A DNA stretch of 64,000 nucleotides from Pempheris klunzingeri (taxonomy: Eukaryota > Chordata > Actinopteri > Acropomatiformes > Pempheridae), in NCBI RefSeq assembly GCF_042242105.1, contig NC_092027.1, forward strand, positions 8,439,721 to 8,503,720, read 5' to 3'. The notes beneath the pieces were generated by a model that saw only the letters and a list, made by a program, of their open reading frames with translations, made no database searches and had not been told where the DNA came from. This document shows, one piece after another, positions 43,001 to 64,000 of the stretch. Position numbers and translations under genes: made by a program. Numbering within the stretch: position 1 is the stretch's first letter; each line of letters starts with the position of its first letter.

Positions 43001-46000
43001 CTACATTTTTAAGGGATATTAAGACAATGAGCAATATGTTATATTTGTTGCATTACTTGCATTCTAAATTCTCCTTATCATTTAAGTTGTATATGTACTA
43101 AACTCAAAAAGGGGACAAACTTACACTTCACAGCGAGACAGATTTGGTAGGCCATGTGTCTGACCTGACCAATTGAGTATGGCAGGTAGTTGTTTTCCTT
43201 TAGGAAGTCGAAAGTGCTGAGAGCTAGTAGCTCAAAGGAGATACACATGTGACCGTGGTAGTCGAACCAGTCATACATTTGTACACACAAGCTGTGAGAA
43301 AAAGAAGATACAGGAGGTTTGAAAATGCAGTAGTAAATGAATGTCAACACTTTCACAACAAGTAATTCAACACTTGAATAGAGACTAATCTAGCATAACA
43401 CATCTTGGTAACTCTCAAAAGACTTCCAGGGAAGGGTGAGGCTTTTACCAAACCTACTATCATGAGCAAAACTAGTTGACACTTAATGTCAGCACTGGTA
43501 AGTTTTAAGTTTACCACAATACTCACAATTTGTTATCAGGGTCCTTTTCATTGATCTTCTCTAGCACATTGATCTCCAGGCGAGCTGCTTCCTTGTACTT
43601 CTCCACATTCTTGATAATTTTCAGAGCAACATGAGCTCCTCCCCTGTAAAACAAGGGATAATGTGAAGCCAAAAACAGCCGTAATAGAACACAAAACATG
43701 CATAATGTGTATGTAAACTTCACTTTGGGGAGTAGATGCAGTTCCCAGAAAGGGACATAAGAGGCATAATTTAACTTGATCCACTGTACAGTTAAAAACG
43801 CAACGCTTAATTCTATTACAACAAAGTCTCTGATCATTATATCAATTATTTAGTGAAATAAATAAAACATAAATACAACATCCTTACAATAAGCAAAGAA
43901 TCTGGTAGTGTCACTTTCTAAAGATCCCGACCATGAAAATGAACTTAGTTGATGATGATTTGTAGCAATGTCACAAGACAGCAAATCTTCAATAATGAAT
44001 CTAACAGGCAGAGAGCGTTTTTCAAGTGGCCCACAGTCACACAAGGCTAATATACTACAAAGCAAAGTTGCCTGCAGTAAACTGTATCATGTGATCAACA
44101 AATGCGGCAGAAAAAACAGCACCTATGAGGCTGTGGTGAATCTGATAGAGTAGTTTGTATATTGAACAGCCAATACCAAAAGAACAGTAGTGAACAATCG
44201 TAAAGGGGGATTAAATACTCTTATCCTAATCTCATTTGGCTCAGGTCCAACCCTTAAGAGGCATGGCACAAACACACTTGTTTTCTAAAAAAAAAAAATC
44301 AGGTACAGTGAGTAGGTATTCACCACTGGGGTCTTCGATGTAGGACCCCAGAGTCTGGTAGCTGTTGTTTTTCAGTGTAAACAAACACACACCTGCGATG
44401 GTCAATGCACTGCATCACCCTCCCAAAAGTGCCTTCCCCCAAAGTGCTGACAATCTCATCTGCAACACAACACAGAGAGAAAAGGAAGAGAGAGGGAGGG
44501 TGGGGAAAGAAAGAACAGGAGCATTAGACATGTGGACTTAAGCAGGAACACATTATGCAAAAGTGTAGACAGGCGTATCACTTCTAGCGCCCATCCCCTT
44601 TTTCAAATGGCTGCCTATTCAATCTGGCAGGCTTGAAACACTTTGAGGTAATCTAAGATAATTGAGTACATAGCGCTATGATACATGTGAAGAAAATAAG
44701 GGGGCAAATGTAAAGCGCTCCCTTCCTTTGATGACCAATTTGCAGCCATCGAAAATAAGGGCACATCCTTTCAAGATGTGGCTGTAGCTGCCCAAAAGGA
44801 CACACGGGTAATGTGTAAAAGTGGAACAATTGTATTTTCACTAAACAATGCATGATCCTGAAAATGACAAACGTGTTAATATAAACGTACTCTCTTAATG
44901 TGTGTTGGCTGTAGAAGAAAAAGACTAAATAGTTGATGTGTATGTTTAAAAAAAATGGAAGAAAATCCCTGAAACCCTCATAGTGGAAAATAACTATCTT
45001 AAGTTACAGATCTAAAACTGTAACTGAGTTTTAATCTGAAACGCAACAGAGACAAACAACTGCAAATGAGATTCTATGTTTAGGAAAGTCAAGTAACCTG
45101 TGAAACATGGAAAATGCTCCACAGCTTAAAATCCTAGAACAAAAAGGAGAAGGTATCTAAAGTCCCTCCCAAAATCTTCAACATTCTTGCAATCCACCCT
45201 GCTATTGCAGCTAGAGCGAAGAGCATTCTAGCAAGGCATCATCATCATCATCATCATCATCAGGCACTCCCATGTCATGTAAATGCTCTATGCTTTAATA
45301 CTCATATGGAGAAGGGTTACGATAGAGTAGTGGCAGTGAGTACATCTCTCTTGCAGGACGTCCCCACTCCGACAGATCAGGTGCCCTTCCTCGTCGTCCC
45401 TCACACTCAGTGCCCGCGTCCGACTGTCGCTCCGCTGTTTTCACACCCAAACCGCCATCAGCAGGTCACGACACGACCGGAGGGAACAGAGGGTTTTCAG
45501 GGGCAGCCGCAGCCATGGCGTCAGGCGGCACAGGTAGACGAGGAGGGAGGAGGAGGGTGGTGTTGGTGGTAGTTGATGTAGTTGTGGTTGTAGGAGGGTT
45601 TGGTGGTCATGGGGCGATTCACGCATGACACCACGTGAAGGATATATATAACGATAGGGATATAGTGCAAGGGAACAAGTCAAAGATCACATGTTGTCCT
45701 CTGCTCCTCTCCCCCCTCTACCTTTAAACCACAGCTGCTTACAAACAAGGAAGCAACTGGCATATCCATTCATCAACGCAAAAACCAATTCAGACAGTGA
45801 TATAACTAATTCAAAACTTATCAGGTTGACTTTGCAGATTAAACAAGATGGAAAACAAAAGAGAGGATCATACTTAAAGATATCCCCCAACAAATATACT
45901 TCAACAAAATTAAACCCCCTACTCACTTAAATCTATACTACTTAATACACAGGTGTGGTTAAACATAGCCCACACAAAAAAATGCATTTTCATAAATCTA

Positions 46001-47225
46001 AAACATTTTAAAACGCCAATAAATTAAAATTTAATTTTAATTAATTAAAATCTAAATTTTGCATGTTTGGGAGAACATTTTCACTTTTTCAGCCTATCTG
46101 CACTAAAGTTCACAAGTGGCCGGACAACTGCTACCACAGGCATTTAGGCTTTTCACTGAAGAAGTGACAACATACAAAATAAGGCTGAATGAAAGGTAGG
46201 GCCATAGACGCAAGTGTGACCAGGTATGGCTAGGCTTTCCAAAGTAAAAGTTAAGAATGCGGTGATGAGTGTGTATCTGAAGAGCAGCAAAAATTAGTGG
46301 TTGATCATTAATGAACTACTGAAAAGTATTTGCATAAAAATGAAAATGCTCTGCCAAAGGAAATGCCAATTTAAGCAAAACCCATTTAAGCGAGAAAAAA
46401 ATAAAAATAAAACCCCTCTGACAGAACAAAAACAAATCATAAAGATTGTACTACTTACCAATTCCAGGAGCTGTGAAGAAGAAATGGTTAGAGAAAGACA
46501 GAGACAGACAGAGCTGAGTGGAAGAGACAGAGATGGAAGGAGAGAGGATGAAGAGAGGTAAAACACAATCTCAGGTCTGGCTGTACTCACCGAGGAGGAT
46601 GGGCTATAGGACCTGGTTCTACGCCGCCTTCGTTTGTGCTTACGCCTGCTGCCTTTCCGCCGGTACGACTCATCCCGCTCGCGCTCCCTCTCGCGGCCAC
46701 GTCGGTAGTCATACATATTCGGAGTGAAGTCGCGTGGATAGTAACTTTCAGCTGCTCCATGTGCCTCCCTTTCTCTGTCGCGGTCTCGATCTCGGCTCTG
46801 ATCCAAGCGTCTGTATCCCTCGCAGTATCTTCGGTCAAATGGCCGGTGCTCCGTGGAGCGATTGTCAAAGCTACGACTGAATCAGGGGACAAAGACATAC
46901 ACTGAAAACTAAACACTGGCAACCAACCAAACCTATAACAAAGATCTGCATAGAAGGTGCTATAAAATGCATAACAAATCTCACGATACACACAAACATA
47001 CCTCCTTGTGCGTGCATAGCTTCCTTCCTGTCTGTGTCCCCGTCCCCTTCTGTCTCGATCTCTGTCTCTGTCACTGCTGGAGGAGTAAGTAGGCGATCTT
47101 CTGTGTCGGTGTCTTCTTCCTCGGTCCCTGTCCCTGTCTCTGTCTCTGTCTCTGTCTCTGTAACGGTCTTGGTAGCTGCTTCGACTGTCTCGATCCGAAG
47201 ACGAGTATCGTCTTGTGTGAGGCAT
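40064..47225 (-). CDS. clk2: CDC-like (LAMMER) dual-specificity kinase 2
   Basis: Twelve coding exons on the minus strand (47002-47225, 46591-46876, 45344-45434, 44393-44459, 43527-43643, 43125-43291, 42582-42676, 42155-42284, 41038-41120, 40594-40673, 40376-40466, 40064-40252) give 539 residues, against 499 in human CLK2. The N-terminal half is an Arg/Ser/Asp-rich region with a long RD repeat. The kinase domain has LGEGTFGRV (207-215), ATP-binding K231 (VALKIIK), catalytic D328 (THTDLKPEN), D365-F-G and the LAMMER signature [11 protein letters not shown] (426-436). It ends NRDISR as CLK2 does. CLK2 phosphorylates SR proteins in nuclear speckles and so controls splice-site choice. Start [10 protein letters not shown] matches the CLK2 start (MPHPRRYHSS). 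The extra length lies mostly in the repeat-encoded N-terminus. Confidence 0.96.
40898..40939 (+). repeat. Interspersed repeat tail
   Basis: 'catgggacgaataaagcaatgtcttatcttatctta' is the 3' tail of a common fish retroposon, here in a clk2 intron. Confidence 0.5.
41441..41937 (+). mobile_element. hAT-like MITE with terminal inverted repeats and degenerate 8-bp target duplication
   Basis: The left end TAGGGGTGGG (41449-41458) is mirrored by CCCACCTCTA (41920-41929), with one mismatch. The flanks AGGTGAAT (41441-41448) and ATGTGAAC (41930-41937) agree at 6 of 8 positions, the length hAT elements duplicate. The 481-bp interior is AT-rich with 'gatatgac' and 'atatcatg' motifs, as in the fish 'ggtgggcgatatg' MITE family, and has no open frame. 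It sits in a clk2 intron and the divergence suggests an old insertion. Confidence 0.65.
45237..45262. repeat. (CAT)n microsatellite
   Basis: About eight CAT/ATC repeats in the clk2 intron preceding (on the gene's strand, following) the 91-nt exon. Confidence 0.9.
47118..47162 (-). repeat. Coding hexanucleotide repeat in clk2 (Arg-Asp tract)
   Basis: On the minus strand (AGAGAC)n and (AGGGAC)n units encode consecutive Arg-Asp pairs near residues 23-36 of Clk2. It is a simple repeat inside a coding exon and probably varies in length. Confidence 0.85.
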
Positions 47226-48436
47226 CTTTTGGATCATTAGAAGGACAAACACAAAACATTATTCAGGCTTTTTACGAACAAATATGAGCAGCTGGTACAC
47301 AAATGCTCCGAAAAGTTCAGGAAATCCTTGTTAAACTCAAAAGTACAGTGGAGAATTGCACTCAAATGTAGGAGATCGATTTTTACAGTTAGTCTTTCCA
47401 AATATTGACATCAGTGGGGCAGCTGTTCACTGCCAAAATCTAACCTAACTGATTTGCGGGGTCAGTTTAAGGAGACAAAAATAGACAAATCTGATCCAAA
47501 ACTACCTGAATAAGCAGCTTTTGGGCACATACATACCATATGAAGATGTAAACGTTAACTTCACTAATTATTAAAGCTGCAATTGAAGGGAGACCGAAAT
47601 AGCTCATCAGTTTCAGGTTAAACGAGCTGATTAATAACAGTTTATTACGCAAATTTGATAAAAAACAAAACAAAACCACGGTTGGGGACGAGGCCTACAT
47701 TTGAATACAGCCAGCCACAGAGACACACAGTTCAACACTCACAACTTTTACGAGCATCAAGGTGAAACATGCAGCCTGTAAATCTGTGCAAAAAAACAGC
47801 TGCAGCTACACAGACAACTGTTGAAGCAGGCCTGGAAATGTGTGAAAAGAGAATGGTGTTCATAAGGCGGGGGTGCAATTTAATAAGCCCGTAGCATGAT
47901 CCAATTTAACTATTCACAACCCGCCGCTGGTTAGCGTGCACAGTGTCGCTTCAAACGAGTGTAAACAACACACAAACTGACCGCAGTGTTTGCATTACGT
48001 AACTAACACTGTGCCAATTTCAGTGAAGCGTTAACTTATCTATCGTAGATTTATAATAACACTCCAGGTGCAAAATACACTTAGACAAGCGTCGGCAATG
48101 TTTTTTTTACCCACCATGTAAGACGATGCGCTAATAAGCGCAAGGACATCAAGTACTCTCACTTAATTTTTATCCCGTCTTCAAGCACCGACATATCAAC
48201 AGCAAAAACAGCTTTAAACTCTAACCAGGTAGCTTTCTAACTGACCAAGAAGCGACGTACTGGATGTTAGCATGCTCGGCTATCAACATTAGCTAATGTA
48301 AATACTTAAACCGCCATCTTAGCTAAGCTACGTTCACCAGCTAGCTAAACAGCTACTCTCGCTAGCCACCGCGCTAACCGTTTGGTCGGAGTTTGGTTTA
48401 ATTATCGGCACAAAACAGCTCGTCTTTAATGTTTAC

Positions 48437-48560
48437 CGTTTTAGCAGCGAGGCCTGTGCGTTTGTCCCACAAGAAATCCGTGGTGGCGTCCCAGTTTGAT
48501 CTCTTATCTTGTTGCTAGCCCGGTGGTCGAGGCTCTGTTGCTTTTTTCCTGCCTGCCAGC
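48437..48560 (-). promoter_or_regulatory. clk2 non-coding first exon and promoter region
   Basis: On the minus strand a donor CTAAAACG|gtaaac lies at 48437/48436, and the coding exon begins with an acceptor right at the ATG (ccaaaag|ATGCC, 47225). The sequence above the donor is CpG-enriched relative to its surroundings, as for a housekeeping promoter. The start site is not determined. Confidence 0.45.
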
Positions 48561-49467
48561 AGAGCTAATTCTGGTTCTGACTGGTGGTGCTAACGCCTCC
48601 CTGCGCCCAAAATGTCATTCAGTCCTCTGAACACAAGCAACCACAGAGGAGCCGCTACACTTCTACACTCTAACTAAATAATATATATATATATATATAT
48701 TATTATATATTAGTCAAGACTGTATGTTCTCAGTTGATTTAAAACATGACTGGTTGATTAATGTTCTTGAGCCAGATGTTCAGTTTTGATTCAATCAGTA
48801 TTTGTATTTTACTGTATAATTAAGTTAGACTCATAGTTTTGACTTATTAAATCAGTCTTTTGACCTGCTATAATGCTATAATTTGTGCACAATTCTCAGG
48901 ATTTTTACTTAAACTGTAATTTTGAATAACTATCATAATTTTGACAAAGTCCTTGTGACATACTTTTTTTTTTATTATCACACATTTTTAACGATTTTGT
49001 AATTTTGACGTCCAAATGATTTTATTTAATCAAATCTTAAACCTCATCTGTTTGCCACTGCCTGTCTCTCTCACAGTTACTTTTATGTAAAGCACTTTGG
49101 ATTGCCTTTGTGTATGAAGCGTGCAATGTAAAATAATTGTCTTGCCTGTCATCATGTCTAACTTTTCATCTTTTTCCAGTGGAAATGGGCTTCAACAGGT
49201 TGCAGCTCTTGTAAGTTAAAATAAGCTTGAGGACAATTTATTAACAATTTATTGTTTTATTTAAGAACACAGAATCTGCAATACAAATACATTTATGAAC
49301 AAACAATACTTTCTGGCTATATTCAGCTGCATGAGTGTCCCGTCGCAGTCCTCAGGAACAGCGCTGGTCTGGTCACAGTTGGTTGCAGGTCATGTGGCTC
49401 ATGGGGATCCAAACACACTGAAACTGTCGCGGTGTACGTCACCACACCAATCATTCTTATGCTCCTC
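48561..49467. other. Spacer between clk2 promoter and the first SETDB1-like gene
   Basis: It holds a (TA)n run at 48679-48702 and a repeat tail at 49085-49146. Minus-strand AATAAA signals at 49248-49253 and 49256-49261, about 210 bp past the SETDB1-like stop, mark that gene's 3' end. There is no room or signal for MBD or SET exons here. Confidence 0.65.
49085..49146 (+). repeat. Interspersed repeat tail
   Basis: 'aaagcactttggattgcctttgtgtatgaagcgtgcaatgtaaaata' is a recognised fish retroposon tail. Confidence 0.5.
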
Positions 49468-52400
49468 TTACTGTTTAAACTCCAAGCACTCCTTCATCAT
49501 ATTAATCATGTGTTCCAAGCGGGGGGAACCTCGGTAGATCCACTCTTTATGTTGATCTCTCTGAGCATGACACACAAAACACTGTAAGTCACGGGATCTA
49601 AATAAATATAACAGTAAAAATAAAGCATGATGTTTGCAGACACTAACCTCAAAAACAACCTCTATTAAGCTGCTGTCAACCACAAGCACCTCACACCTCT
49701 GCTGGACTCCATTAAGTTCTGCATTAATGGTCTGTCCAACCCTGTAATGGGTCTGGGGCGGATACGGCCACACCTTCATGTAGTCCTTTAAGAACTTCTT
49801 GTATGCCTCATCTGGAACATCATCTAAAGGGTCCGGCACTGTCACAGGACAAAAAATAAAATAAAATGTCTGTTACTCAACACATGCAAGAATTTTAACA
49901 GTCTAAATTTCCAGAACAAGCATATAAGTGGATTTTGAATGCAAAAAAATGGCATTGTTATGCCAGCATTAAATTTGAGAAACGATGCAGCTGAAATGAT
50001 CATAGGATTGTCTTTCAGAGCAGAACTGGGCGGTTCTCATTCCTCTGTGAGCGGAAGGTCACTAAGCTTTTGTTTTGTCAGAGAGGACATTTTGTGCATC
50101 ATCACTGTATCCAACTGTCATCAGATGATCTTTTGTCTGTAATACATCTTGAAAGCAGTCTGTGTGTGAATGAAAACAGCCAAACTCACATGGTCTGAAC
50201 ACCAGGTGAAGTAAAGGTAATCCAACGTACATCGGTCTGTTATCATCACAAAAGACCAGGAACCTGTAAATCAAAACACACTTTTCATCATACTGCACTT
50301 AACCTGCATCTATCAAGGAGACCGCTGACTTTATTGAAAAAAGCCAACGAACTTGAATCTCACTTCATTATAGAAAGTTAGCCCGAAGACACACAAACCT
50401 CATGCGGTTTTTTCTGTTTGGGACTTCGGCCAGGACACCAGGGCAGAACCGGACCTGGTCTTTTTGCCACTTGACCACCACGCGCGCGCCGACAACCAGC
50501 TGGTCCAGCTTTGGCATGGAGTCAAAGCCGATGTGGTGAGCAGAGACTAGGGACTTCTTCTTCTCCTCAAAATGGATCTTGTATTTCAGTCTCCCATCTG
50601 CAAATACACAAATAATCACATGAAATAAATTAATTTATAACAATAATAATAATAATAATTCTCTGCATCAGGAATTTGTGGTGGCTACATTTCATGAGCA
50701 AGCCTCTGATCTTTGTTGGTACACAGCCAGCTCATTTGTAGCTCTAAATAAATTTGACTACCATAACCTGTCAAGTTGAAAAATGTGCTGCATTATATTC
50801 TGTGTTGTGCCGGTTACACAGATTTTCTGTTTTCTTTACCCTTTGTTACTATGTCCATGACTTTCCCCCGCTTCCAGTTATTGTCACTCTGTCTGGCCAG
50901 GACACTCATGTTCACACAGATCTCTCCTTGTGGCGCCTCAGGATGCGTCTTGATGGCTTTGTCAGATTTCTGGCAAAGAGTGGACGCTGTGCACACAGGG
51001 GTGACTCCTGTCAGTGGAAAAGGAACATGTTAATGTTAAAACATGTGAACTTCAGATTTGTCAAGGTGATAATGATGAGTGAGGAAAACTGCTAATTATT
51101 GTGTATGTATATATTTTGAAAAATAAATATCAGTTCCTTCTAAAAATCATAAATAGCCCAATGCTAACAGCTGAGGAGTTCTGCAATTCATGCAACAAAG
51201 TTTGAGTAATTAGGGTGTTCATGTTTTTTGTACAGTGTGTTTTTTGTGGCCATTACCGTTGGCTGTTGCTGGTGATGTTGATGTTTTTATTGGTTTGCAC
51301 TCGTTGGTGTTTCTGTTGGTTTGGGGTGGCGACGTTTTTGTTACTTCGCTCTTCACATTGGCTTGGAGTGTTGATGTTTTTGCTGTTTTGCTCTGAGCAT
51401 CAGTCTTTGTGCTGGCCTGGGGTTTGGCGTTACTCTTTTGAGCAATTCTTCTCCTTTTGTTTGGCCCATACTCATAATCTGAGACAGAATACTCCGAATC
51501 ACTCGAGTCATCCTCTGGTTGATAATCAGATTCCCAGATATCTGAGGATTCATCTTCACTGCAGTTGTTTGGAGACTTTCGTAGACATAAAGACTTGATC
51601 ATGCTCGTAGTAAGTCTGGTCAAGACCACCACTGGTCGTCTCTTCATGCAGTTTTTTTTAATGTTATCTGCACTGTGGTCCTCAGCTTCAATAAGGTCCT
51701 TCAGCTTTGTTAACAGAGGAGTCAGGCCAGAAGTAGTTGGAGGGCTGAGGACTTCAGTCTCAGTGGGAACAAACTTACGTGGGGATGGAGCTGTATTTCC
51801 TACAAAAGGGAGTAAAAGGGACAGGTCAGGTTGTGGCTTCCAAAATAAGCCAGTTCGTGGTTGAGAATGACAGAGCAATTGTGGACACAGTCATACCACG
51901 AGTTTACTTTAAATCAAATCAATTAAATCAATTAATTTAGTGATCTGCATCTTACCACAGTCTGCTTGATTATCATCATCAGAATCTGCGTCTCTGTACT
52001 CCCAGCCCAGCAAAGAGTACTGTTTCTTCACAGTTGCCTCACATGCCACCACAGACCTAAAAGACACCAACGACAAACACAACAGGAATAAAGCAAAGAA
52101 CATAAAGAAACACTTAAACGGACCGGTACACTCTTCACTTTTTAATAAATAAAAATCAAGCCAATGGTTATAATACAAATGCATTCTTCTTTAATGTAGA
52201 AATTAAAACTTTTTTTACCATAATGGTCTGTTTTTTGTTTTTTTTTTAAATATATGTTGGCTTTGCTTTATCATCCGTACAAATGAGTCAAAGCGGAAAC
52301 GGCAGCCCAATGACTTTTGGTATTTAACAAGACAAATGAGTTTGGCTTGAAGGACGCACAACTTTCTCTCGCAGCCATCAGAGCACTTTATTCTATTTCA

Positions 52401-52787
52401 GGGAGCAGGATAATCGCTGAACTTGCAGACTACACAGAGCAGAGATTAACCCAGGTTTCAACTCCCCTGTTTCTGAGCTGGTTGGATAGAGGCTGGATGG
52501 ACAAGTAGTAGTTAAAATAATGGTTGACATATTTAAGTGGTTTGCAAATGGAGTGAGTCCACACCAGAAAGAACAAACTCATTTTTAAAAAAGGCATAGA
52601 ATAGATGTAACACTCACTCGCAGAGCTTCAGGAGGTGGGCAGCCCGTTCCTCCCTCTTTTGCAGCAGAGATTGCAACAGACTGCATTTCTCCAGCAAATT
52701 TGTGGAGATCAGTCCGCTCTTCTTCACCATCTTTCTGATCCACTTTTGGAACTCCTCTTTGGTCATCTCCCTCTCATCCCCCTCCAT
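49468..52787 (-). CDS. SETDB1-like tandem-Tudor protein without SET domain (copy A)
   Basis: Eight coding exons on the minus strand (52618-52787, 51956-52056, 51257-51799, 50840-51007, 50399-50597, 50190-50263, 49648-49838, 49468-49560) join in frame to 512 residues. The N-terminus has a helical region and CEATVKKQYSLLGWEYRDADSDDD, which matches the SETDB1 stretch before its Tudor domains (CESLVKDFYSKLGLQYRDSSSED). A long Lys/Thr/Ser-rich linker (92-271) includes VVVLTRL and an acidic DDSSDSEYS. Residues from about 295 to 505 are the SETDB1 tandem Tudor module: VLARQSDNNWKRGKV, KYKIHFEEKKKSLVS, NRKNRMRFLVF and EWIYRGSPRLEHM. It then stops at ECLEFKQ, where SETDB1 continues to MBD, pre-SET and SET, and 0.9 kb later the clk2 promoter begins. 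In SETDB1 these Tudors read H3 carrying K9 methyl and K14 acetyl marks. In copy A the aromatic WLY of the second Tudor is RFC. The role here is inferred as a histone reader or SETDB1 competitor. Confidence 0.85.
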
Positions 52788-55044
52788 AGTGACTGCAACA
52801 CACAAGGTGTACAGCTGGGGTGTTGTTGATGAGGGGACGGCGCCCCTTAAATTCTACAATACTGCAAAAGGGAAATGTTGTTGTTCATAAGACGGGTAGT
52901 TACTGGCAGGTAGGGCTGCTAGCACACCAGCAGAGTCACAGCAGACAAACACATCCTTTCAAACCTGGTGTCTACTGTACATCCGCTGCTGGTGTTTTGT
53001 TTAGCTTATGGCCAATATCACTACAGCAACAGCACCATATCGCTCCATAGTATGCTCTGGCATTCAATGCTGTTAGGGTCTGTAGTGGTGATACAGGCAG
53101 AGGGTCAGAGGGTCTGTGAGGGTCAGAGGGTCTCTGTAAAAAGAGTTTACCTGTGATCATGGTTAAAAGTGTTTTACGCCTAGAGATGAACGGATAATAG
53201 TCAAGGTTTTGTGCTATCAATTACTTGCATGCATGTGTGCAACACTGTGATACCAACTATTACTGTCTGCATGTGTCAGCTGCATAAAACGATGATGATG
53301 TTGTTGCTATGGTGAGGAGCCTGGCTAATTTTGTAGTTCTGTTGAACATGCCAAGGATTAGCAAACATCAGGCGGTTATAAGCAAAGAAACTTCAGCAGC
53401 TGGATGCGAAAACTGCTTTCTAGCATCAAACTCTGCACACGGACCATCCTGAAGTGTTGGTGTGAAACATCAGAGTAGCAAGCCAACACTTTTCTGAGAA
53501 AGGAAACCTCTATCTGTGCCATGATTAACATTAGCAAACACTTAGCCGCTCATGCCTGAAATGGTCAAACGGCGGTTCTGTTCTGCTTTTTTATCGTGGG
53601 TGGGACAAATTTATCAAACTCACAAGTTAGTTCTCATCGATTAAAACCTTTCGAAAGTCAAGAACTTATTTGGTAAATACCGTAAAATAGGTAGAAGTCT
53701 GCCCTCCTTGTGGAGTGTTTTCTTCGCCTCATGCTGCCACGCCAAGCTGTAAGAAGCTCACTGCTGCCCCCTGCGGCCGCACAGACAACCAGCAGGCGTC
53801 TCTGCTTGAGCCCTCTTATTCAAAACCAGCAGCAAATAAAATGCATCAAACTGTTCATAATAATTGATAAAACATATATAAAATACACGTAAATATGTAT
53901 ATGTTTGCACTTGGTGTTGACAGTTTATTGCTGTAATATACTGTAGTAGACTGTGTTGTACTGTTTTATTACATTATATAATTATGTTTCTATATTAATA
54001 CAGAAAAGTAGTATTACTTAATCATAGTATATATTAGTCAGGTGTAGCTGTTTACTAGACTTGCTGCTGCTTGCTCTTGTTTAGTTTCTATTTAAACATA
54101 TATTCTTGTTTTAGATTTATATACCTTTTATGTTTTGTTTTGTGCTTTCTCTATTTATATTCATTTGTCCTTGTGCCTTCAGGAATCCACTTTTCTTCTC
54201 TTTACTAGGGGAGCCTTGCTAAAACTAATGCAGTCAATACAGCCCTGAAACAAATTACATTAATGTCACAAACAGCTTTCAAACCAAACATGAAGTTAAA
54301 TTATGACCAGTGATGGAAGAAGTATTCAGATCATTTACTTGAGTAAAAACAGCAACCAGACGATGTAGAGATAGGCCTGAAAAGGCCTATATGTCCCTGC
54401 ATTGAAAGTATTAAGTAATTAAAAGTACAATACTTTTAACTACAAAAATAAAATTATTCATTGTGCATATTGTCGTGTTCGTTTTTTTTCGAATGAAGAC
54501 AGGCAACTTCTCTCATTTAAGGTGTTTTAATGTTTGTAAGAATAAAACATAAGCATGGCCATGGACTCAGTCTGTTCTCGGAAAACCACAGTCAGCAAGC
54601 TGTTACTCCGTAGCCAACAGAGAGCAGAGTGAGCCCCGGGCTCTGTATAATGCATCATTTTGTACATTCAGATATTGTGGATAGAATTGTGATTGGTTTA
54701 GATTAGGTGGGGGGAGACCATGGTTTAGACTTGGCTCTCCCTTGTTGGTGTACAGGCTGGTCCCAGCCTCTTGGCATCACGACCTCCAATCCGGTAAAGC
54801 TGAACCTGGGAAAAAGTACCCTCCCTATTCTAGTCTCATGCATGATCATCCTTCAGTGCAACCTATCCCTATTGTGTCTATCTTGTCTAACTTCTACAAT
54901 AGTGGCATTCAGAGAGAGCATCTCTTGTCCTTGGAGCTCCCTTATATGGAGTTGTTGAGTTGTTAGAGTGGTGCATGTAAGCAGTGTGCCCTCCTGCCAG
55001 TCATTAACATTATGAAGTTGGCCAACTCTATAGCAATACATTTA
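52788..55044. other. Upstream region of copy A; spacer
   Basis: A splice acceptor (tgttgcag|TCACTATGG, minus strand) five bases before the ATG of copy A shows a further non-coding 5' exon, which I did not place. A MITE fragment lies at 54308-54470. 54,480-55,040 may be other repeat material, but I cannot assign it. Confidence 0.45.
54308..54470 (+). repeat. hAT-like MITE fragment
   Basis: 'agtgatggaagaagtattcagatcatttacttgagtaaaaacagcaac' and 'ctgcattgaaagtattaagtaattaaaagtacaatactt' match the common fish MITE of which 19653-19775 is the other end. Confidence 0.55.
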
Positions 55045-56581
55045 CAGTGGGGCAAAAAAGTATTTAGTCAGCCACCAATTGTGCAAGTTCTCCCACTTAA
55101 AAAGATGAGAGAGGCCTGTAATTTTCATCATAGGTACACTTCAACTATGAGAGACAGAATGGGGGAAAATAAGTATTTGGTCACCCACAAACAAGCAAGA
55201 TTTCTGGCTCTCACAGACCTGTAACTTCTTCTTTAAGAGGCTCCTCTGTCCTCCACTCGTTACCTGTATTAATGGCACTTGTTTGAACTCGTTATCAGTA
55301 TAAAAGACACCTGTCCACAACCTCAAACAGTCACACTCCAAACTCCACTATGGCCAAGACCAAAGAGCTGTCAAAAGACACCAGAAACAAAATTGTAGAC
55401 CTGCACCAGGCTGGGAAGACTGAATCTGCAATAGGTAAGCAGCTTGGTGTGAAGAAATCAACTGTGGGAGCAATTATCAGAAAATGGAAGACATACAAGA
55501 CCACTGATAATCTCCCTCGATCTGGGGCTCCACGCAAGATCTCACCCCGTGGGGTCAAAATGATCACAAGAACAGTGAGCAAAAATCCCAGAACCACACG
55601 GGGGGACCTAGTGAATGACCCGCAGAGAGCTGGGACCAAAGTAACAAAGGCTACCATCAGTAACACACTACGCCGCCAGGGACTCAAATCCTGCAGTACC
55701 AGATGTGTCCCCCTGCTTAAGCCAGTACATGTCCAGGCCTGTCTGAAGTTTGTTAGAGAGCATTTGGATGATCCAGAAGAGGATTGGGAGAATGTCATAT
55801 GGTCAGATGAAACCAAAATAGAACTTTTTGGTAAAAGCTCAACTTGTCGTGTTTGGAGGAGAAAGAATGCTGAGTTGCATCCAAAGAACACCATACCTAC
55901 TGGGAAGCATGGGGGTGGAAACATCATGCTTTGGGGCTGTTTTTCTGAAAAGGGACCAGGACGACTGATCCGTGTAAAGAAAAGAATGAATGGGGCCATG
56001 TATCGTGAGATTTTGAGAGAAAACCTCCTTCCATCAGCAAGGGCATTGAAGATGAAACGTGGCTGGGTCTTTCAGCATGACAATGATCCCAAACACACCG
56101 CCCGGGCAACGAAGGAGTGGCTTCGTAAGAAGCATTTCAAGGTCCTGGAGTGGCCTAGCCAGTCTCCAGATCTCAACCCCATAGAAATTCTTTGGAGGGA
56201 GTTGAAAGTCCGTGTTGCCCAGCGACAGCCCCAAAACATCACCGCTCTGGAGGAGATCTGCATGGAGGAATGGGCCAAAATACCAGCAACAGTGTGTGAA
56301 AACCTTGTGAGGACTTACAGAAAACGTCTGACCTCTGTCATTGCCAACAAAGGGTATATAACAAAGTATTGAACTTTTGTTATTGACCAAATACTTATTT
56401 TCCACCATAATTTGCAAATAAATCCTTTAAAAATCAGACAATATGATTTCCTGGATTCTTTCCCCCCATTCTGTCTCTCATAGTTGAAGTGTCCCTATGA
56501 TGAAAATTACAGGCCTCTCATCTTTTTAAGTGGGAGAACTTGCACAATTGGTGGCTGACTAAATACTTTTTTGCCCCACTG
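55045..56581 (+). mobile_element. Tc1/mariner-family transposon, complete with long inverted repeats
   Basis: The 1,537-bp element is flanked by TA target duplications (55043-55044 and 56582-56583). Its ends are inverted repeats of about 125 bp starting CAGTGGGGCAAAAAAGTATT. By eye the two copies differ by only three changes: one 2-base indel, one base substitution and one G-run length. An inner inverted motif (aaataagtatttggtcac and gaccaaatacttatttt) gives the IR/DR layout typical of fish Tc1 elements. The ends resemble the Passport-type Tc1 group found across fish, lampreys and frogs. The near-identical ends and open transposase point to a recent insertion. It sits between the two SETDB1-like genes. 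Confidence 0.95.
55350..56372 (+). CDS. Tc1-like transposase
   Basis: This is a single uninterrupted 340-residue frame, the full length of Tc1-family transposases such as Sleeping Beauty. The N-terminal paired-like DNA-binding region has two helix-turn-helix halves (residues 1 to about 110) joined by an AT-hook-type LPRSGAPRK. The catalytic DD34E triad is present at D153 (WSDETK), D244 (QHDNDPKHT) and E279 (PDLNPIE), the same positions as in Sleeping Beauty. A Gly-rich box ([11 protein letters not shown]) lies between the first two. The enzyme would excise and reinsert the element at TA sites. I see no premature stop or frameshift, so it may be active, though missense damage cannot be judged by eye. 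Confidence 0.95.
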
Positions 56582-56583
56582 TA

Positions 56584-58587
56584 AGCAATATGTGTGTGTC
56601 CCTGTAAATACAAAGCAGTGAATAAGGTACAAAATAAGGCACTATTAATAATAACAATATGATCTCCACACATCATAAGGCACTTGGAATACTAACACTA
56701 TATTTGTCACAAATATTATATTCCCCACATCATATGTTAGTATTATGATATATTCTTACATTATTTGGATTCTTATAATTGATGATTTATATCAATTAGT
56801 TATGTTAGCTGGTGGTAGTGGATTTTATGTACTCTTGGGTGGTTTTGTTAATTAGAAAACTTTGATATTGCAACAAAATGTTCTTCTGGTGTTAAATTAG
56901 AACTTTAATATCACCATAAAATGTCTTAGACCTGCAAAGAACAGACCTGCTCCCTCATTGTGAGAGTGGCCAGATAAAGACAGGATGTGCGGGTCACCCT
57001 GACCTCCACAGAATAGTGGCCCCTCTATTGTTTTGAGAAGCAGATAGATAGAATGTATAAAAACATATTCTAAAAGTTATGACTATAGATACACGCCTAC
57101 GCAAACAACATCCACAAATCCAGAAAAGGTTACGTACATTACTCTGTCCAAAAAACATTTAAAATCAGATGTTTGACTCAGTTTGTTGCTCCTCTGACCG
57201 CCCATTGTGGATTAATTGTGAAGTGCGCTGGTTTTATCAAGGTGCTGAAGGCTTCTCATAAATGTGGACTGCATGCTGTAAACTGCAAGACGTATTTCAA
57301 CAGACAACAAATATAACATGTAACAGTTCACGTTTACTGCACAGGACAATCAATTGAACACCTGAATTTCAGTTAGTTGAGACCTTAACATTTTCTGTCA
57401 TGTTACAGGTAGTTAGAAGCCCTTAAACAGCAGCATTACAATTGCTGAAGTGCTGAACGTGTTGGAGCACACAGCAGAAAACAGAGCTGAAACAAAGCTT
57501 TTTAATACATCTGTGGAAATGAGGCTGATGGCACCAATATACAGTTCAAAACATTGTTTACTGGATTACTTACAAAAATAAACAAAAGAATGACAAACAG
57601 ATTACTATATACTCTCACTGGCTACTTTAGTGGGAACATTAAGTTACTAGTACTGAGTTGGACCTCCTGTTACCTTCAGAGCTGCCTTAACTCCTCTGGG
57701 CACAGATTCAAAAAAATGTGTTACAGTGGTGGAGGTGACCATGAATAACTTTGGCTCAGTGGGAGGCAAGAATGATCTGATTTTGGAAAGTTTCTTTGGC
57801 TGAAACAAGCAGGAAGCAAGACTGGAGAAGGTTCTTAACATGAGCCTCAAAACAGAGATCTGCATCAGAAATGACCTCAAGATTTCTAGCAGCCTGCTTC
57901 ATATTTTTGGTCAGTGAGAAGGTTGCAAAATAATTATTGGACAAAGGCAAAAAAAACAATTGTCTGTTTAATGGGAAATTAATGCATTAAAAACCGCAAA
58001 AGTGTAATACAGTACATGTCAGATTTGTCTGGCTCCCCGGCCGGAGTTATACAAGATCCAGATTTGGTTTCTTCTTTAGTGGTTAAAAATTTTAATGTTT
58101 GATACTGTTTGGAAAGTTGCCAGAGGTCAGAGAGCTGTCAATGATCAATAAAATAAAAGGAGCAGTTTAAAAAAACTTGTTTGGGATAATATCTAAAACA
58201 TAGATGGAGGATTCCATCTGAGAAACTGATTTGTTAGTAGGTTGAAACAGGGAGAGAGAATCTTAGATTATGGATGTTGTAATGTGGATGGATGTTGCCG
58301 TCTTCCCAATAAAATTAGCATTTTTCTATTTTTTCTGTCCAAAAATTTCCCAGTTCTAAATCTGTATTAGTTGGTGCATCGAGAATCATCACATTAAAAT
58401 GAAAAAAAAAATTACTAAAAATAAAATCAAACAAGAAACAATATTTACAATGATGCCCAACTCTGGCATTCAAGGTTCCCAAATCTCACAACACATAGCT
58501 TCATGGTGGTGGATAGTAGTGAAAACCAATTTTTCAAAATATATATATTCCAGAGTTATGTCCAAGTTGTCCTGTGTCTTTAGGCTT
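56584..58587. other. Spacer downstream of copy B
   Basis: AT-rich, with a repeat fragment at 57620-57735. I looked for SETDB1 MBD or SET exons on the minus strand and found none. Confidence 0.5.
57620..57735 (+). repeat. Interspersed repeat fragment ('gagttggacctcctgttacc' type)
   Basis: 'actgagttggacctcctgttaccttcagagctgccttaactcctctgggcacagattcaa' is a truncated copy of a well-known fish repeat ('gggttggaccccctttt..cttcagaactgccttaa'). Confidence 0.6.
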
Positions 58588-61500
58588 CTAGTCAGAATCA
58601 TCCTTGTTCTCTTGGTGCATTTCGAAAAAGCTTGTCATGTGATCAAGTCTAATAGAGCCTCGATGGAGCCACTCCTGTTGATTATCCTGAATGTGACAAA
58701 AAATTTATATTAAACCAAAGAAACCTTAACAAAAGTAACAAAATAATCAATAGCTCAAACAACAGCAGTTTTGCAGTAGACGTTTTAAACTTGGGGCTTA
58801 TTTTTTTTGCATGTTTTGGGTTCAAATTGACTGGTAGGTACAAAAAGATTTGGAATTGGTCCACTAGGCAGTTGACAGTCACAATCAGGTGCTTGTTTTT
58901 GCCACCGACAAGCTCAGAGTGTTATTCAATCAATCAATCAAAGTTTATTTATATAGCCCTTTCCAACAGCCCAAAAGGGTGACCAAAGTGATTCACAGAT
59001 AAAAAACCAAAGGAAATTATTTTAAAAACAGAAACATGACTTAAAATAGCAGTAAAATAGACAGTATTAAACCACTAAAATCTACATCTAAAAGTGAACA
59101 CATAATTCACCTAACTAAAATAAAAGATCAGATAAGATGAAATAAAATGTCGCATGCAACTAGGTATTAAAAGCCTTTTCACAGTCTACATTTCATTTAA
59201 CCAGAAACAGCCGTTTGGTTTAAAGCCACCAGACTCCACTGACAAAAACAGTAATTTTGTCTCGCAGAACACGCCAGTTGCTGGTCTACCACGGCCTTGG
59301 TCAGTTTGTTTCTTTGTGTTACTGCGTGACTTTAGTTTTTATGGGCTCACAGTTAGTGAAAGCAACGAGATCAGCAACTCCTGTTTTCTGCAATGTAAAA
59401 TGACTGTTTTTGTGAATGGAGTCTGGTGGCTTTGAACCGGCTGTTTCTAGTTAAACAAATAAGATCTCACAGGCTCGTCTTTGTAGGGATTCTTCCTGTA
59501 ATGTTGTCGGACACTTTAAACAACAATCTGTGCCCGTCAGTGGAGAAAATAATAATAATAAATTTTAGTGGATTTACTTTGACAGGTAAGGATTACATTG
59601 TAGATATTGTAGCCCATTCACAGTTGCTGGAACAGTTCTAAAACTTTATGTAGCCACCAGTCATTTCACACCAAAATATGTAAATATCGAGCCCAGGTTT
59701 AATAATACCAACATTAACCTTTACTCACCTGAAAAATGACCTGCATCAAGCTGCAGTCGATCACCTGCACCTTACACTTCTGCTGGACCTCATTTAATTC
59801 TGCCTTGAGGCTTTCACCAACCCAGTACTGGTATAATGGAAAGTACGGCCAGCTCCTCAGGTAATGCTTCATGAAAAGTTTGTGAGAGCTGTCTGGAATG
59901 TCATCTAAAGCATCTTCCACTGTCAAAAACAGAAACAACAGAGAGTCTTTTACTCTTCTTATTGAAATATCTAGTAGTAGTATATCTAGTAGTACTGTTC
60001 ATCTCAGCGGAAACTCTGTGCCAGATACCATTTTTTGGGGCTCCAGAGCTTCAGTGGTAATAAAGAGCGACTACTCGTAGCTTCGGCAGGGTGCTGAGCA
60101 TGACTTGGGAAGGACTTGGCCAGACATGTCTTTGTTCTCAGCTGAGATGGACGGCATAGTTCTGTGCCACTTGTTATTTAGTTTAAGGAAAGGCATTCGT
60201 TTTAAGGCTTCTGTTATTCTACAGTATTGTGAAAATACATGCTAACATACTTTCCTCAAACTTGTGGTCATTTTTGCTCCCTGGTGCCAATTTACAAAAC
60301 TTTTTGGCAGTTTTTTCTCCCCAGCAGCACCACCATTAGCACCACCACCGACTGAATGACACAATTGTAATGATTGATTTTTTTAAATTATACTGAATTC
60401 ATCAAGACAACGGATAAACATGGACGACATTTTAAGTTCCCATCACAAAACTGGAGCTGGTAAGAAAGATGGAGACTTCTGACCAAAACGTGATAAATAA
60501 AAGAAAACAACACAGGGGAAATAAAGGGCCTGATTCTTTCTGAGGAAGAGGTAGTGAAAACAGCCAAACTTACATGGTCGACACACCAGGCGAAGGAAAG
60601 GTAAACCTACGTAGAGCGGCGTGTGATCATCCAGAAAGACCAAGAACCTGGAAAATTAAAATATCATCAAACCTTTAGTTAAGCATTTCTGTAGGGAATT
60701 GCTAAATGCTATAAAAGCTTAAATTAATTCAAAGATGTAGGGATGAACACTCGTTCAAACACACACCTTAAGCGGTTCTTTCTGCTGGGGAGCTCTGCCA
60801 AAATGGCCGACTGGAACCAGAACTTATTATCTTGACTCCTGACGACCACGCGAGCACCGACATACAGCTGCTCCAGCTTCGGCGTGTTGTCATAGGCGAT
60901 GTGGTGGCCTGACACGAGGCTCTTCCCTTTCTCTTCAAAACTAACTTTGTACTTCAACCGTCCATCTTCTGCAAATAACAAATGTCAGTGGGTGAAATTA
61001 GTAAAATCACATTTGTGCCGGATTGATTTTACAATCGTTTTGTTTTACTGATGTTTTTAAGTGCTTATGATCAATTTACCGCCAAAAAGATTAATTTTCT
61101 TACCCCTTGTAATTACATCCACTATTTTTCCCCGTTGCCATTTCATGAACCTTTTCCTTGCCAGGACCATCATGTCCACTTTGAGCTCTTCTTGTGGCAA
61201 GTTAGGACGCATCTTTGTGATTGGTGGCGATATTATGACAGGCGGTTTTAACACTGGAAAAAAGAAAATAATAAAAGCTTATGAGCTTGATAACTGATCA
61301 TGGGAACTTTCAGGGAAATCAATGCATCATATATGTATATATACAAATTATGCATCATCATAGAGGTCAAGTAAGACATTATGTGAGTGCAGATTAATCC
61401 AGTATCGTCTTTTTAGGGTTGGTTTTTATCTGTGGGTATTAGAGGTGTTCATGTGCATGTCATGGCGTATTTTGTGGCTTTACCATTGCGCTTGACTCTG

Positions 61501-62289
61501 CTGCTGGATTGTGCTGCTGGTCGTGTTTTTGTGTTACTCTTGCTGGATTTTGTAGTTTTCTGTTTATTGCCTGAGAGTCTGTAATCAGAATCACTAGAGT
61601 CATCTCCAGGTTCCCAGTCCATATCCGTATCATAGCAGCTGAGGGACTCTTCCTCGCTGTAGAACTGCCGAGGCGTTGGCGGTCGCAGAGCGCTGATCTT
61701 ATAATCAGGAAGTCTGGTCAAGACCACCACTGCTTTTTTTATTCTGAGAGGGTCAGAAGCGCTCTTCAATTGTGTCTCCTTGCTGCGAGTTTCATTTGTG
61801 GATGAAATAGCCTCACATGGGATATTGGACATATTTTCTGCAAAGAAAAAAGCATCAGTGAAATTGTGTCTTGCAACAAGCAAAAAAAAGAGATTATAGT
61901 ATTCTTTAGTTTTTGCCCTTATTCCCCAGACAACATTCCTACTAAGCTATTTCCATGAATAGTGAAATAAATGAATATTTCACTAACATTCCCATTTACA
62001 TGCAGCCATGGAGCCGTGATTTTTCTTAGATAGGACAAATAAATGATTAAGTTAAAAAATTGTGGTCATAAGTAAATTTGCCAAGAATTTCTTTTTTGGA
62101 TAATGAGATCTTTAAATTGGCCAAAAATTACCACGTTTAATTAATTTAATTTAATTAACAGTGCTTGTGCTTACCACAATCCTCATCTTCTCTTTTTATG
62201 AACTCTGTCATCTTGTTTTTTAACCTTCCCACAGACTGCTGGAGCTCCAATGTTCTCGTGTCCAGCTTGTCCATCTCGTCCACCTCCAT
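58588..62289 (-). CDS. SETDB1-like tandem-Tudor protein without SET domain (copy B)
   Basis: Seven coding exons on the minus strand (62175-62289, 61484-61837, 61104-61253, 60767-60968, 60574-60647, 59729-59919, 58588-58686) join to 394 residues. From exon 4 onward the exon sizes equal or nearly equal those of copy A (202 against 199, 74 and 74, 191 and 191, 99 against 93), with the same phases, so the two are tandem duplicates. The Tudor module reads KYKVSFEEKGKSLVSGHHIAYD, NRLRFLVFLDD, LYVGLPFLRLVCRP and EWLHRGSIRLDHM, closer to human SETDB1 than copy A in the first Tudor. The N-terminus is short (MEVDEMDKLDTRTLELQQ, helical) and lacks the CEATVKKQY segment of copy A. The linker keeps VVVLTRL and GDDSSDSDY. 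It ends ENKDDSD. A possible 24-nt leader exon lies at 62574-62597. No MBD, pre-SET or SET exons follow. Confidence 0.85.
58927..59148 (+). repeat. Interspersed repeat ('caaagtttatttatatagcc' type)
   Basis: 'tcaatcaatcaaagtttatttatatagccctttccaacagcccaaaagggtgaccaaagtgattcacag' followed by A-rich sequence is a very common teleost retroposon tail. It lies in the last intron of copy B. Confidence 0.6.
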
Positions 62290-63148
62290 AACCACTATAA
62301 CACACAATCATGATTTAATACACAGGTTTGGACTCCAGTGAATACCACATAACATTCCAGCTCTGCTATTGTCATATGCGATGCAACTTGTCTCTCTATT
62401 TACAGTAAGAAAATTAGAAATAAACTACAACAAAAAGAATAAGAACAGAACAATATAAACACCATAAGTATTCATAACAACAGTATGTATAGTGGAGGCA
62501 GGTGTGGTGCATTTATCTAGTGCAATATTGTAGTGACGTGGAGGTAACACTTTAACCAAAACTGGCAGCTTACCGGTTATGTCCTGATTATCCAGCTCTG
62601 AAGGCAAAAGTCTGGTCACACCACAATGAGAATAATTATAATTATCAATATATTGTATTATTAGTGTGTCGATGACTCGTTTAGCCGTAGGTGACGCTAG
62701 CTACCACAGGCTAGCAGCACTATATAGCTAGCACAGAAACAAAATGCTCAGAGTTAACCCGACTTAATCCCCTTTTAAAGTTTTAATTTAGCGTCACGAC
62801 TGAGTGAAAAATATACAAAAAGAGTCGCAGTTTTGCTAAAGCAAAATCAACATAAACACAGCGCCCTCCATTGCAAACTTCCGTTGCTTTATTTTCTTTT
62901 TCTGCAAATGTTTGCGCTGGTTCTTCTTCGTGGGTGTTTAATGACGGTCAGCTAAAACACAAAATGGCGCCACCCACTGGTGTGGAGTGTGCACGGCGGC
63001 TACACAAGGGTCACTTTGATTGATGGTGGAAACTCAGGCAAATAGTTTATTGCACAAAAGAATAAAAGCGATGTCATTTGTTTATTGTCATTCCATGGTT
63101 ATTGTTGTTTTTTCCCTATTAAACGATTTAAACTGTATTTTCTGTGTG
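62290..63148. other. 5' region of copy B
   Basis: A minus-strand acceptor (gttatag|TGGTTATGG) precedes the copy B start, so the leader is spliced. CpG-richer sequence and CAAAATGGCGCC (about 62960-62971, YY1-like) near 62,650-63,000 mark the probable promoter. Confidence 0.45.
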
Positions 63149-63262
63149 TCATGCAATAGCAGTCACAATATCTCCTCTCAGGAACAGGATCTCTGATATC
63201 TCATCCCCAAAGTTTGCAGGATCACTGTACAGATCAGTGTACGACTGAGGAGGGTGGTTCAT
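63149..63262 (-). CDS. Candidate terminal exon of an unidentified minus-strand gene
   Basis: A 37-codon frame (MNHPPQSYTDLYSD.. then ..FGDEISEILFL) ends at a stop at 63149. A canonical minus-strand AATAAA lies at 63081-63086, about 65 bp further on. Just upstream is a possible splice acceptor (tttctctaaag|AGACATG). Upstream exons would lie beyond 64,000. I do not recognise the peptide. It could also be a chance short frame. Confidence 0.3.
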   Translation of the reverse strand: MNHPPQSYTDLYSDPANFGDEISEILFLRGDIVTAIA

Positions 63263-64000
63263 GTCTCTTTAGAGAAACACAGCCGCTGCATTAACAGGCT
63301 ACTCCAGATACTTCATATTTCATCAGGAGCAAATAAGTGCTTTTAGGAAACTGTTATTTCCTTGTGAGCTCTTTGACTTTACAACTTTTTTTGTTGTTAA
63401 TGCTTGAAACAGAAGCTGTGGGTCAGAACTGTTGATGCCTTGGGAGTGTGATCAGTGGGTCCAGTCATTCAGAAAAACACTCAGATACAACCTGATACAT
63501 TCCATGCTACTTCCATGACAGTGTAAAGACTCCTGTTCATTATGTACACTTCATATCCCTTCAAAATTGTGTGGTCTTAATTTAATCAATTAACTTAATG
63601 ACCTGATCCTCATCAATCCCCACCCTTCCTTTGATGTATTTTTGTATTTTCACTGACCAACAATTTAAAAAAAAAAAGGTATAAATGCCCCCCAAACATC
63701 CACATAAAGCATGATAATGGCAGTAAATTATTTTTATAAGAGTACCCCTACAATTCAGCATCAGCAGCTAAACAGTGTCAGACTCTGACTGCACAGTTTT
63801 TAGAGGATAGACATTAAAGGACAGAAATTGAGGGATTGATTTTCTTTATGGTGGAATGTGTTTATGTTTATGTGGAAATTACACTGCTCCCTCTGATGTA
63901 AATATGAAAAAACAACCCGTGACGTCTTTGAGCTATGATGGACAATCTGTTATCATAACAATGAAATAAAAACAATTAATATTAACATCAAACTGACCTG
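63263..64000. other. Window end, no feature recognised
   Basis: AT-rich sequence with no credible exon. If the 63149-63262 exon is real, this would be its last intron. Confidence 0.4.

Follow-up and report, generated by a model that had tools for sequence, protein, structure and literature searches.

A tandem pair of genes derived from SETDB1, designated copy A and copy B, was found on the minus strand of the 64,000-nucleotide stretch of Pempheris klunzingeri DNA analyzed here (the window; C16:8439721-8503720 in an assembly of 646 Mb and 439 contigs). Both copies lack the catalytic half of SETDB1 and are truncated just past the Tudor array, most of their histone-reading cage residues have been lost, and broken frames or broken splice sites of the kind found in pseudogenes are absent from both. 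We propose, with confidence about evenly divided for and against, that they descend, as a tandem pair, from a second (ohnologous) teleost setdb1, are dead for both catalysis and mark reading, and may act as adaptors or decoys. The structural and historical statements made below are firmer than this mechanism, on which a bet would be about even.

Copy A comprises eight coding exons, which run from 52787 to 49468 and encode an open frame of 512 codons; all seven introns are GT-AG, and the end of the stop codon is at 49468. Copy B comprises seven coding exons, from 62289 to 58588, with an open frame of 394 codons, six of six GT-AG introns (13/13 for the two genes together) and a stop codon that ends at 58588. 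The original prediction had placed two minus-strand genes at these coordinates, ending just past the Tudor array, and the stop codons and GT-AG models confirm this placement. The exons of copy A, in window coordinates, are as follows.

52618..52787, minus strand: coding exon 1, N-terminal coiled-coil region (open reading frame plus GT donor; homology to the complete SETDB1 on contig C8 is joint with exon 2)
51956..52056, minus strand: coding exon 2, which closes the SETDB1-type N-terminal region (SVVACEATVKKQYSLLGWEYRD; gene model and alignment with the C8 gene)
51257..51799, minus strand: coding exon 3, which encodes a long linker bearing RRPVVVLTRL and an acidic stretch (common to copy B; none seen in the C8 gene)
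50840..51007, minus strand: coding exon 4, start of Tudor 1, 168 nt (PF18300 at residues 298-353, across exons 4 and 5)
50399..50597, minus strand: coding exon 5, Tudor 1 and 2, 199 nt (gene model, structure and Pfam matches)
50190..50263, minus strand: coding exon 6, 74 nt (length and phase identical in copy B and the C8 gene)
49648..49838, minus strand: coding exon 7, Tudor 3, 191 nt (PF18358 at residues 452-498, across exons 7 and 8)
49468..49560, minus strand: last exon, final Tudor strand (EWIYRGSPRLEHM) and stop codon, 93 nt (gene model)
49237..49261, minus strand: three AATAAA polyadenylation-type hexamers with first bases at 49261, 49253 and 49242, about 0.2 kb past the stop codon

The exons of copy B are as follows.

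62175..62289, minus strand: coding exon 1, short N terminus without a recognizable SETDB1 coiled coil (gene model and comparison with the C8 gene)
61484..61837, minus strand: coding exon 2, which encodes a linker bearing KKAVVVLTRL and an acidic stretch (gene model and comparison with copy A)
61104..61253, minus strand: coding exon 3, start of Tudor 1, 150 nt (gene model and Pfam)
60767..60968, minus strand: coding exon 4, Tudor 1 and 2, 202 nt (gene model, structure and Pfam matches)
60574..60647, minus strand: coding exon 5, 74 nt (gene model and comparison with copy A)
59729..59919, minus strand: coding exon 6, Tudor 3, 191 nt (gene model and Pfam)
58588..58686, minus strand: last exon (DNQQEWLHRGSIRLDHM...) and stop codon, 99 nt, 1.0 kb beyond the preceding exon

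In the last Tudor exon, the stop codon lies 14 codons past the RLE of the final strand in copy A and 17 codons past the corresponding RLD in copy B. A model of copy B without its last Tudor exon was rejected, as the exon is present at 58686-58588. In both genes the start codon lies 5 bases past an AG that is preceded by a pyrimidine-rich or T-rich stretch; because of this arrangement, the sequence suggests that each gene has a 5' untranslated exon. A search of positions 44000-64000 with Rfam returned nothing at the gathering score.

The Tudor regions of both proteins match SETDB1 triple-Tudor structures (E = 9.5e-44 for A and 2.7e-46 for B), which bears out their predicted origin from SETDB1. 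Three Pfam models, DUF5604, Tudor_5 and Tudor_4, scored above cut-off in both copies, and the same three cover the Tudor domains of the C8 gene; DUF4537 was also above cut-off in copy A, over the Tudor 1-2 stretch. When PF18300 was searched against the assembly, C8 was matched twice and copy B once, and copy A was not listed. The start phases of the five Tudor exons (1/1/2/1/0) are identical in copy A, copy B and the C8 gene. Their lengths are 171/202/74/191/130 in the C8 gene, 168/199/74/191/93 in A and 150/202/74/191/99 in B, the last figure for A and B including the stop codon. Of the exon sizes and phases that the two copies had been said to share, all five phases therefore hold, but of the five sizes A and B match exactly in two, are a single codon apart in a third and further apart in the other two. 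In the C8 gene, the fifth of these exons continues to a GT donor, whereas the equivalent exon in A and B carries the stop codon.

Within the Tudor region, the C8 protein is identical to human SETDB1 at 168/206 positions (81.6%), compared with 80/205 (39.0%) for A and 85/205 (41.5%) for B. Identity to the C8 protein is 87/205 (42%) for A and 93/205 (45%) for B, and A and B are identical to each other at 116/205. Where human and C8 agree, A and B carry the same changed residue in 33 columns, A alone is changed in 17 and B alone in 12, both are changed in different ways in 40, and all four genes are alike in 63; these counts leave out gapped columns and the 38 columns in which human and C8 differ. 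Changes common to A and B include W358L, W362Q, W363Q and A302P. On this alignment, A and B form a sister pair on a long common stem. They also share a linker in which VVVLTRL is followed by a serine/acidic run (51641-51612 in A and 61739-61710 in B, both minus strand). No such linker was seen in the first nine coding exons of the C8 gene, with which it was compared. VVVLTRL and the acidic run resemble, and could form, a SUMO-interacting motif.

The two genes had been described as keeping the Tudor module only. This does not hold for copy A, which has a SETDB1-like coiled coil as well as the linker, and copy B, too, has a long linker exon. Residues 4-86 of copy A align with residues 12-97 of the C8 protein (30% identity over 86 columns, E = 8e-7), and the N-terminal exons of copy A are homologous to the SETDB1 coiled coil. 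The N terminus of copy B gave no match to the SETDB1 coiled-coil region when compared with the C8 gene and with copy A. In Setdb1, the N-terminal coiled coil is reported to bind two Atf7IP chains and to contain nuclear export signals (PMC12167477).

The catalytic half had been predicted to be missing near both copies, and no tblastn match to the C8 catalytic half was obtained at E<=1, either across the window or across 20 kb of sequence upstream of copy B; the same search recovered the catalytic exons on C8, which served as a positive control. MBD, pre-SET and SET likewise had no match in the window or in those 20 kb. A third copy within the 20 kb upstream of copy B was considered and rejected, none having been found.

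A search for a full-length setdb1 elsewhere had been proposed, and it yielded one complete gene, on C8 at about 16855959-16867698 (plus strand), which has exons for MBD, pre-SET and SET. A model was built of the first nine coding exons of this gene, and the MBD, pre-SET and SET exons were mapped by tblastn to 16867698. This was the only complete SETDB1 in assembly searches with protein A and with the C8 catalytic half as queries, searches that score best candidates only and that weak remnants elsewhere could escape. Protein A returned rows for A, B and C8 and one on C3 at E = 2.08. Of the 18 rows returned by the catalytic half, 6 belonged to the C8 gene, where they extended to 16864701, and the strong SETDB1-type matches were on C8. 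The other 12 fell on C2, C11, C24 (two rows), C16 at 7.40 Mb, C16 at 8.647 Mb, C7, C19, C18, C14, C13 and C9, with E values from 9.8e-20 to 4.89; two of them were identified, both on C16 (ehmt2 and ash1l). SETDB1 catalytic exons elsewhere in the assembly were rejected within the reach of this best-candidate search. The two C24 matches (C24:416212-417104; E = 4.1e-16 and 9.8e-6) appear setdb2-like by their pattern. A Pre-SET family search returned six rows and is a weak test of absence, because the known C8 gene, whose Pre-SET is split over exons, was not among them.

The original prediction held that the Tudor domains could read H3K9me/K14ac marks, that is, methylated lysine 9 and acetylated lysine 14 of histone H3, and this is the claim that the residues speak against. 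Residue roles were taken from the study of human SETDB1 in PMC5727127, with numbering anchored on Y268, and the other 19 residues match the letters given in that paper. The cage of the second Tudor domain (TD2; Y268, W275, Y277, F297 and Y301) reads W/R/C/C/R in A and S/W/Q/L/T in B, and that of the third (TD3; W358, W363, F379 and D382) reads L, Q, F and D in both, where the D at position 382 of B hinges on a one-residue alignment gap. Cage residues identical to human thus number 2/9 in A and 3/9 in B. In each copy, six of the eight cage aromatics have become nonaromatic, including both TD3 tryptophans, leaving 2/8 aromatic; at other conserved aromatic positions, 8/14 remain so in A and 9/14 in B, and 70/154 (A) and 75/154 (B) of the remaining columns in which human and C8 agree have been kept. 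The K14ac groove (F296, G300, A302, F332 and Y389) reads F/N/P/F/Y in A, with 3/5 kept, and F/H/P/F/H in B, with 2/5 kept, and both copies retain E386 and R394, the salt-bridge residues. All of the cage, groove and salt-bridge residues examined are intact in the C8 protein. In human SETDB1, W358A is reported to cause an 18-fold loss of binding to K9me2/K14ac and to abolish binding to K9me1/K14ac, and Y268A to weaken K9me3/K14ac binding (PMC5727127). Because most cage residues are lost in A and B while C8 keeps all of them, H3K9me reading by either copy appears unlikely; weak or K14ac-only peptide binding is possible to judge by the residues that remain.

Selection was analyzed over 204 Tudor codons of A, B and, where included, the C8 gene. 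Between A and B, dN was 0.319 and dS 1.14, giving a ratio (omega) of 0.28 and a value of 33.7 for twice the log-likelihood difference (2dlnL) against omega 1. In a three-branch model that included C8, the joint omega of A and B was 0.29 (2dlnL of 33.8 against 1), and separate values of 0.60 for A and 0.18 for B gave no better fit (2dlnL of 0.92). Fixing omega at 1 cost 0.1 units of 2dlnL for A and 4.9 for B, a weak rejection for B. Pairwise omega against C8 is saturated (dS of 27 for A and 6 for B). Neutral evolution of the present frames was also simulated, with substitutions only, at 0.15, 0.285 and 0.57 per site in 2,000 runs each; the frame was still open in 1, 0 and 0 runs for A and in 2, 1 and 0 runs for B. 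The Tudor codons of A and B thus look constrained as a pair, and the predicted constraint on the open frames stands for the pair but not for copy A alone.

In the order of minus-strand transcription, the window carries copy B, copy A and then clk2, which is represented by the following feature.

43514..43642 (C16:8483234-8483362), minus strand: CLK2 kinase-domain match, downstream of copy A (joined kinase pieces, with CLK2 as the best structure match, E = 1.7e-99)

C8 carries another CLK2, at 16880117-16883240 (plus strand), approximately 12.4 kb past the last mapped SET exon of the plus-strand setdb1, and the interval may contain intervening genes. CLK2 structures were the best match for both kinases, and the C8 kinase pieces match the C16 CLK2 query at 54 to 85%, so that the two CLK2 genes have diverged. 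The order SETDB1-CLK2 on a single strand of C8 has its counterpart in the order B-A-CLK2 on a single strand of the window, which bears out the suggestion that an ancestral setdb1 lay beside clk2. Because CLK2 sits downstream, on the same strand, at both places, gene order indicates that the pair occupies the sister SETDB1 locus. The contig that carries the pair also carries ehmt2 at 7.40 Mb (structure match to EHMT2 at 1.9e-96 versus EHMT1 at 7.8e-75) and ash1l at 8.647 Mb (ASH1L at 1.2e-68). In zebrafish, chromosome 19 is given as the location of setdb1a, ash1l and ehmt2 and chromosome 16 as that of setdb1b (PMC2200798), and both setdb1a and setdb1b are named in a fish gene set (PMC11603059). 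From these zebrafish chromosome numbers, it is suggested that A and B probably derive from the setdb1a copy.

Open frames of other kinds were noted at the two loci. Between A and B, at 55287-56372 (plus strand), there is a 361-codon frame, open from stop to stop, which we take to be a Tc1-type transposase. A Tc1 copy inside an intron of the C8 SETDB1 gene, whose frame contains a stop, is 94.8% identical to that of the window over 1433 aligned positions. Between setdb1 and clk2 on C8 (L032 7347-8429) is a 360-codon frame, again open from stop to stop, presumably a Tc1-type transposase of a different subfamily from that of the window. At about 24738-26820 of the window (plus strand), RRM-like and RGG-rich open frames are present, which we assume to belong to a gene of the hnRNP R / SYNCRIP type.

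After the teleost genome duplication, one setdb1 would have stayed complete, as the C8 gene, and the other would have been stripped of its MBD/SET half and its TD3 cage, acquired a new linker and finally undergone tandem duplication. The A and B proteins would then neither write nor read H3K9 methylation, their Tudor fold would act as a protein-protein surface, and the pair would correspond to the short SETDB1 isoform in a permanent form, encoded by genes of its own. Copy A, via its coiled coil, could bind ATF7IP and corepressors, tuning or competing with complete SETDB1, and copy B, without the coiled coil, could have a narrower role through its linker or Tudor surface. A role other than reading or writing marks is probable because the catalytic part and the reading pockets have both been lost, yet the pair shows signs of constraint; a scaffold, adaptor or decoy role is favored because A and B resemble the short isoform, with the cages also lost. 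That the copies compete with full SETDB1 or act as adaptors had been proposed at the outset and is possible from their sequences, more plausibly through the N terminus or other partners than through methyl-lysine. A bolder version, which we put forward tentatively and consider less likely than not, is that of a lineage-specific SETDB1-derived pair in which the writer and the methyl-lysine reader were lost and the scaffold was maintained by selection, with roles split by the ATF7IP-binding end and the two proteins setting the level of SETDB1 silencing as competitors or adaptors.

Several observations weigh against the adaptor or decoy interpretation. Retention of the ATF7IP interface in A depends on the 30% identity over 86 columns, and the genome-duplication origin depends on gene order and a single zebrafish table (PMC2200798). 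The cages were not lost significantly faster than other columns, which indicates an absence of retention and gives no sign of selection for loss. F296, F332, F379, D382, E386 and R394 are kept in both copies, and Y389 in A. Copy A alone is indistinguishable from a neutral sequence, because omega values of approximately 0.2 to 1.5 all fit within 2.4 units of 2dlnL. Finally, the 3.1 kb past the stop codon of copy B contain only ATTAAA and no AATAAA.

Some of these points lend themselves to other explanations. If the two proteins were working histone readers without catalysis, their Tudor domains would recognize H3K9me/K14ac, in competition with complete SETDB1 on chromatin; the seven retained residues just named would fit such a role, as would the three Tudor-region Pfam models above cut-off in both copies and the aromatic W at the Y268 position in A. 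We nevertheless consider this very improbable, as neither copy has the TD3 tryptophans or an intact TD2 cage, with C8 complete, the K14ac groove is altered at G300 and A302 in both, and the mutations W358A and Y268A impair binding by the human protein (PMC5727127). That A and B are decaying pseudogenes which have yet to gain a stop codon would account for their fast divergence (39.0% and 41.5% Tudor identity to human, versus 81.6% for C8), their gutted architecture, the branch omega of A, which is compatible with 1, and the lack of AATAAA past B. Against such decay stand the 13 GT-AG introns and the frames of 512 and 394 codons that have stayed open despite a synonymous divergence of approximately 1.1, the joint omega of 0.29 (2dlnL of 33.8) and the neutral simulation, in which substitutions alone left a frame open in at most 2 of 2,000 runs, and we regard it as unlikely.

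SETDB1 has a central part in the silencing of transposons and retroelements. A and B can be envisioned as fast-evolving partners in genome defense, adaptors or decoys in transposon silencing whose divergence took place under changing selection. The long shared stem (33 columns with a change common to A and B, set against 17 private to A and 12 private to B), the VVVLTRL/acidic linker common to A and B and unseen in C8, with its possible SUMO-interacting motif, and the Tc1 copies between A and B and within the C8 SETDB1 gene would be in keeping with this idea. However, positive selection was not demonstrated, the SUMO-interacting motif of the linker is putative and the Tc1 copies may simply be common in the genome, so that we think this unlikely. 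Alternatively, the pair could stem from a limited segmental duplication that took in the 5' half of the C8 setdb1, rather than from a sister locus left by genome duplication; a single event would then account for the absence of the 3' half. This origin is highly improbable, as CLK2 follows both loci on the same strand, the C8 and C16 CLK2 genes have diverged (54 to 85%), and ash1l and ehmt2 lie on the contig of the pair, as they share a chromosome with setdb1a in the zebrafish listing (PMC2200798).

A Tudor-only SETDB1 product is already known as a splice form, and what would be new is its fixation as genes. Among the literature matches listed, in which subscription papers were thinly covered, no title concerned a Tudor-only fish SETDB1 gene. 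A tandem gene pair fixed as Tudor-only with dead cages was likewise absent among these matches, and annotation databases may carry such genes under "SETDB1-like" labels. The accessible parts of PMC11603059, PMC12147562, PMC5045360 and PMC6347452 do not describe genes of this kind. Natural scaffold-only genes would cleanly test what the Tudor fold and the N terminus do alone, a question already posed by the short isoform and by the noncatalytic functions reported for SETDB1 (PMC13108219). The pair would be a clear case of a duplicate without catalysis or mark reading that is still open and, as a pair, constrained.

These genes may be compared with several known systems. The SETDB1 triple Tudor structures (3DLM, 6BHD, 7C9N and others) can be aligned with A and B across the entire triple Tudor region; however, neither copy conserves the aromatic K9me-binding cages. 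The complete SETDB1 on C8 has the same Tudor exon phases and the same order relative to CLK2, but it carries MBD, pre-SET and SET exons and all of the cage residues, which A and B do not. Zebrafish setdb1a shares a chromosome with ash1l and ehmt2, as the pair shares a contig with them; unlike A and B, it is listed as a SET-domain gene (PMC2200798). A further parallel is the short isoform of SETDB1, which retains the Tudor domains without MBD, pre-SET, SET and post-SET. Human isoform 3 lacks the C-terminal domains (PMC8397983), and the shortest mouse transcript encodes a Tudor-only protein that is reported to form a complex with HDAC1/2 and Sin3A/B and to act in repression (PMC13108219, citing earlier work). 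That isoform is a splice form of a working gene, whereas A and B are two genes from whose locus the 3' half is absent and in which, beyond the domain loss of the isoform, most of the reading-cage residues have been lost as well.

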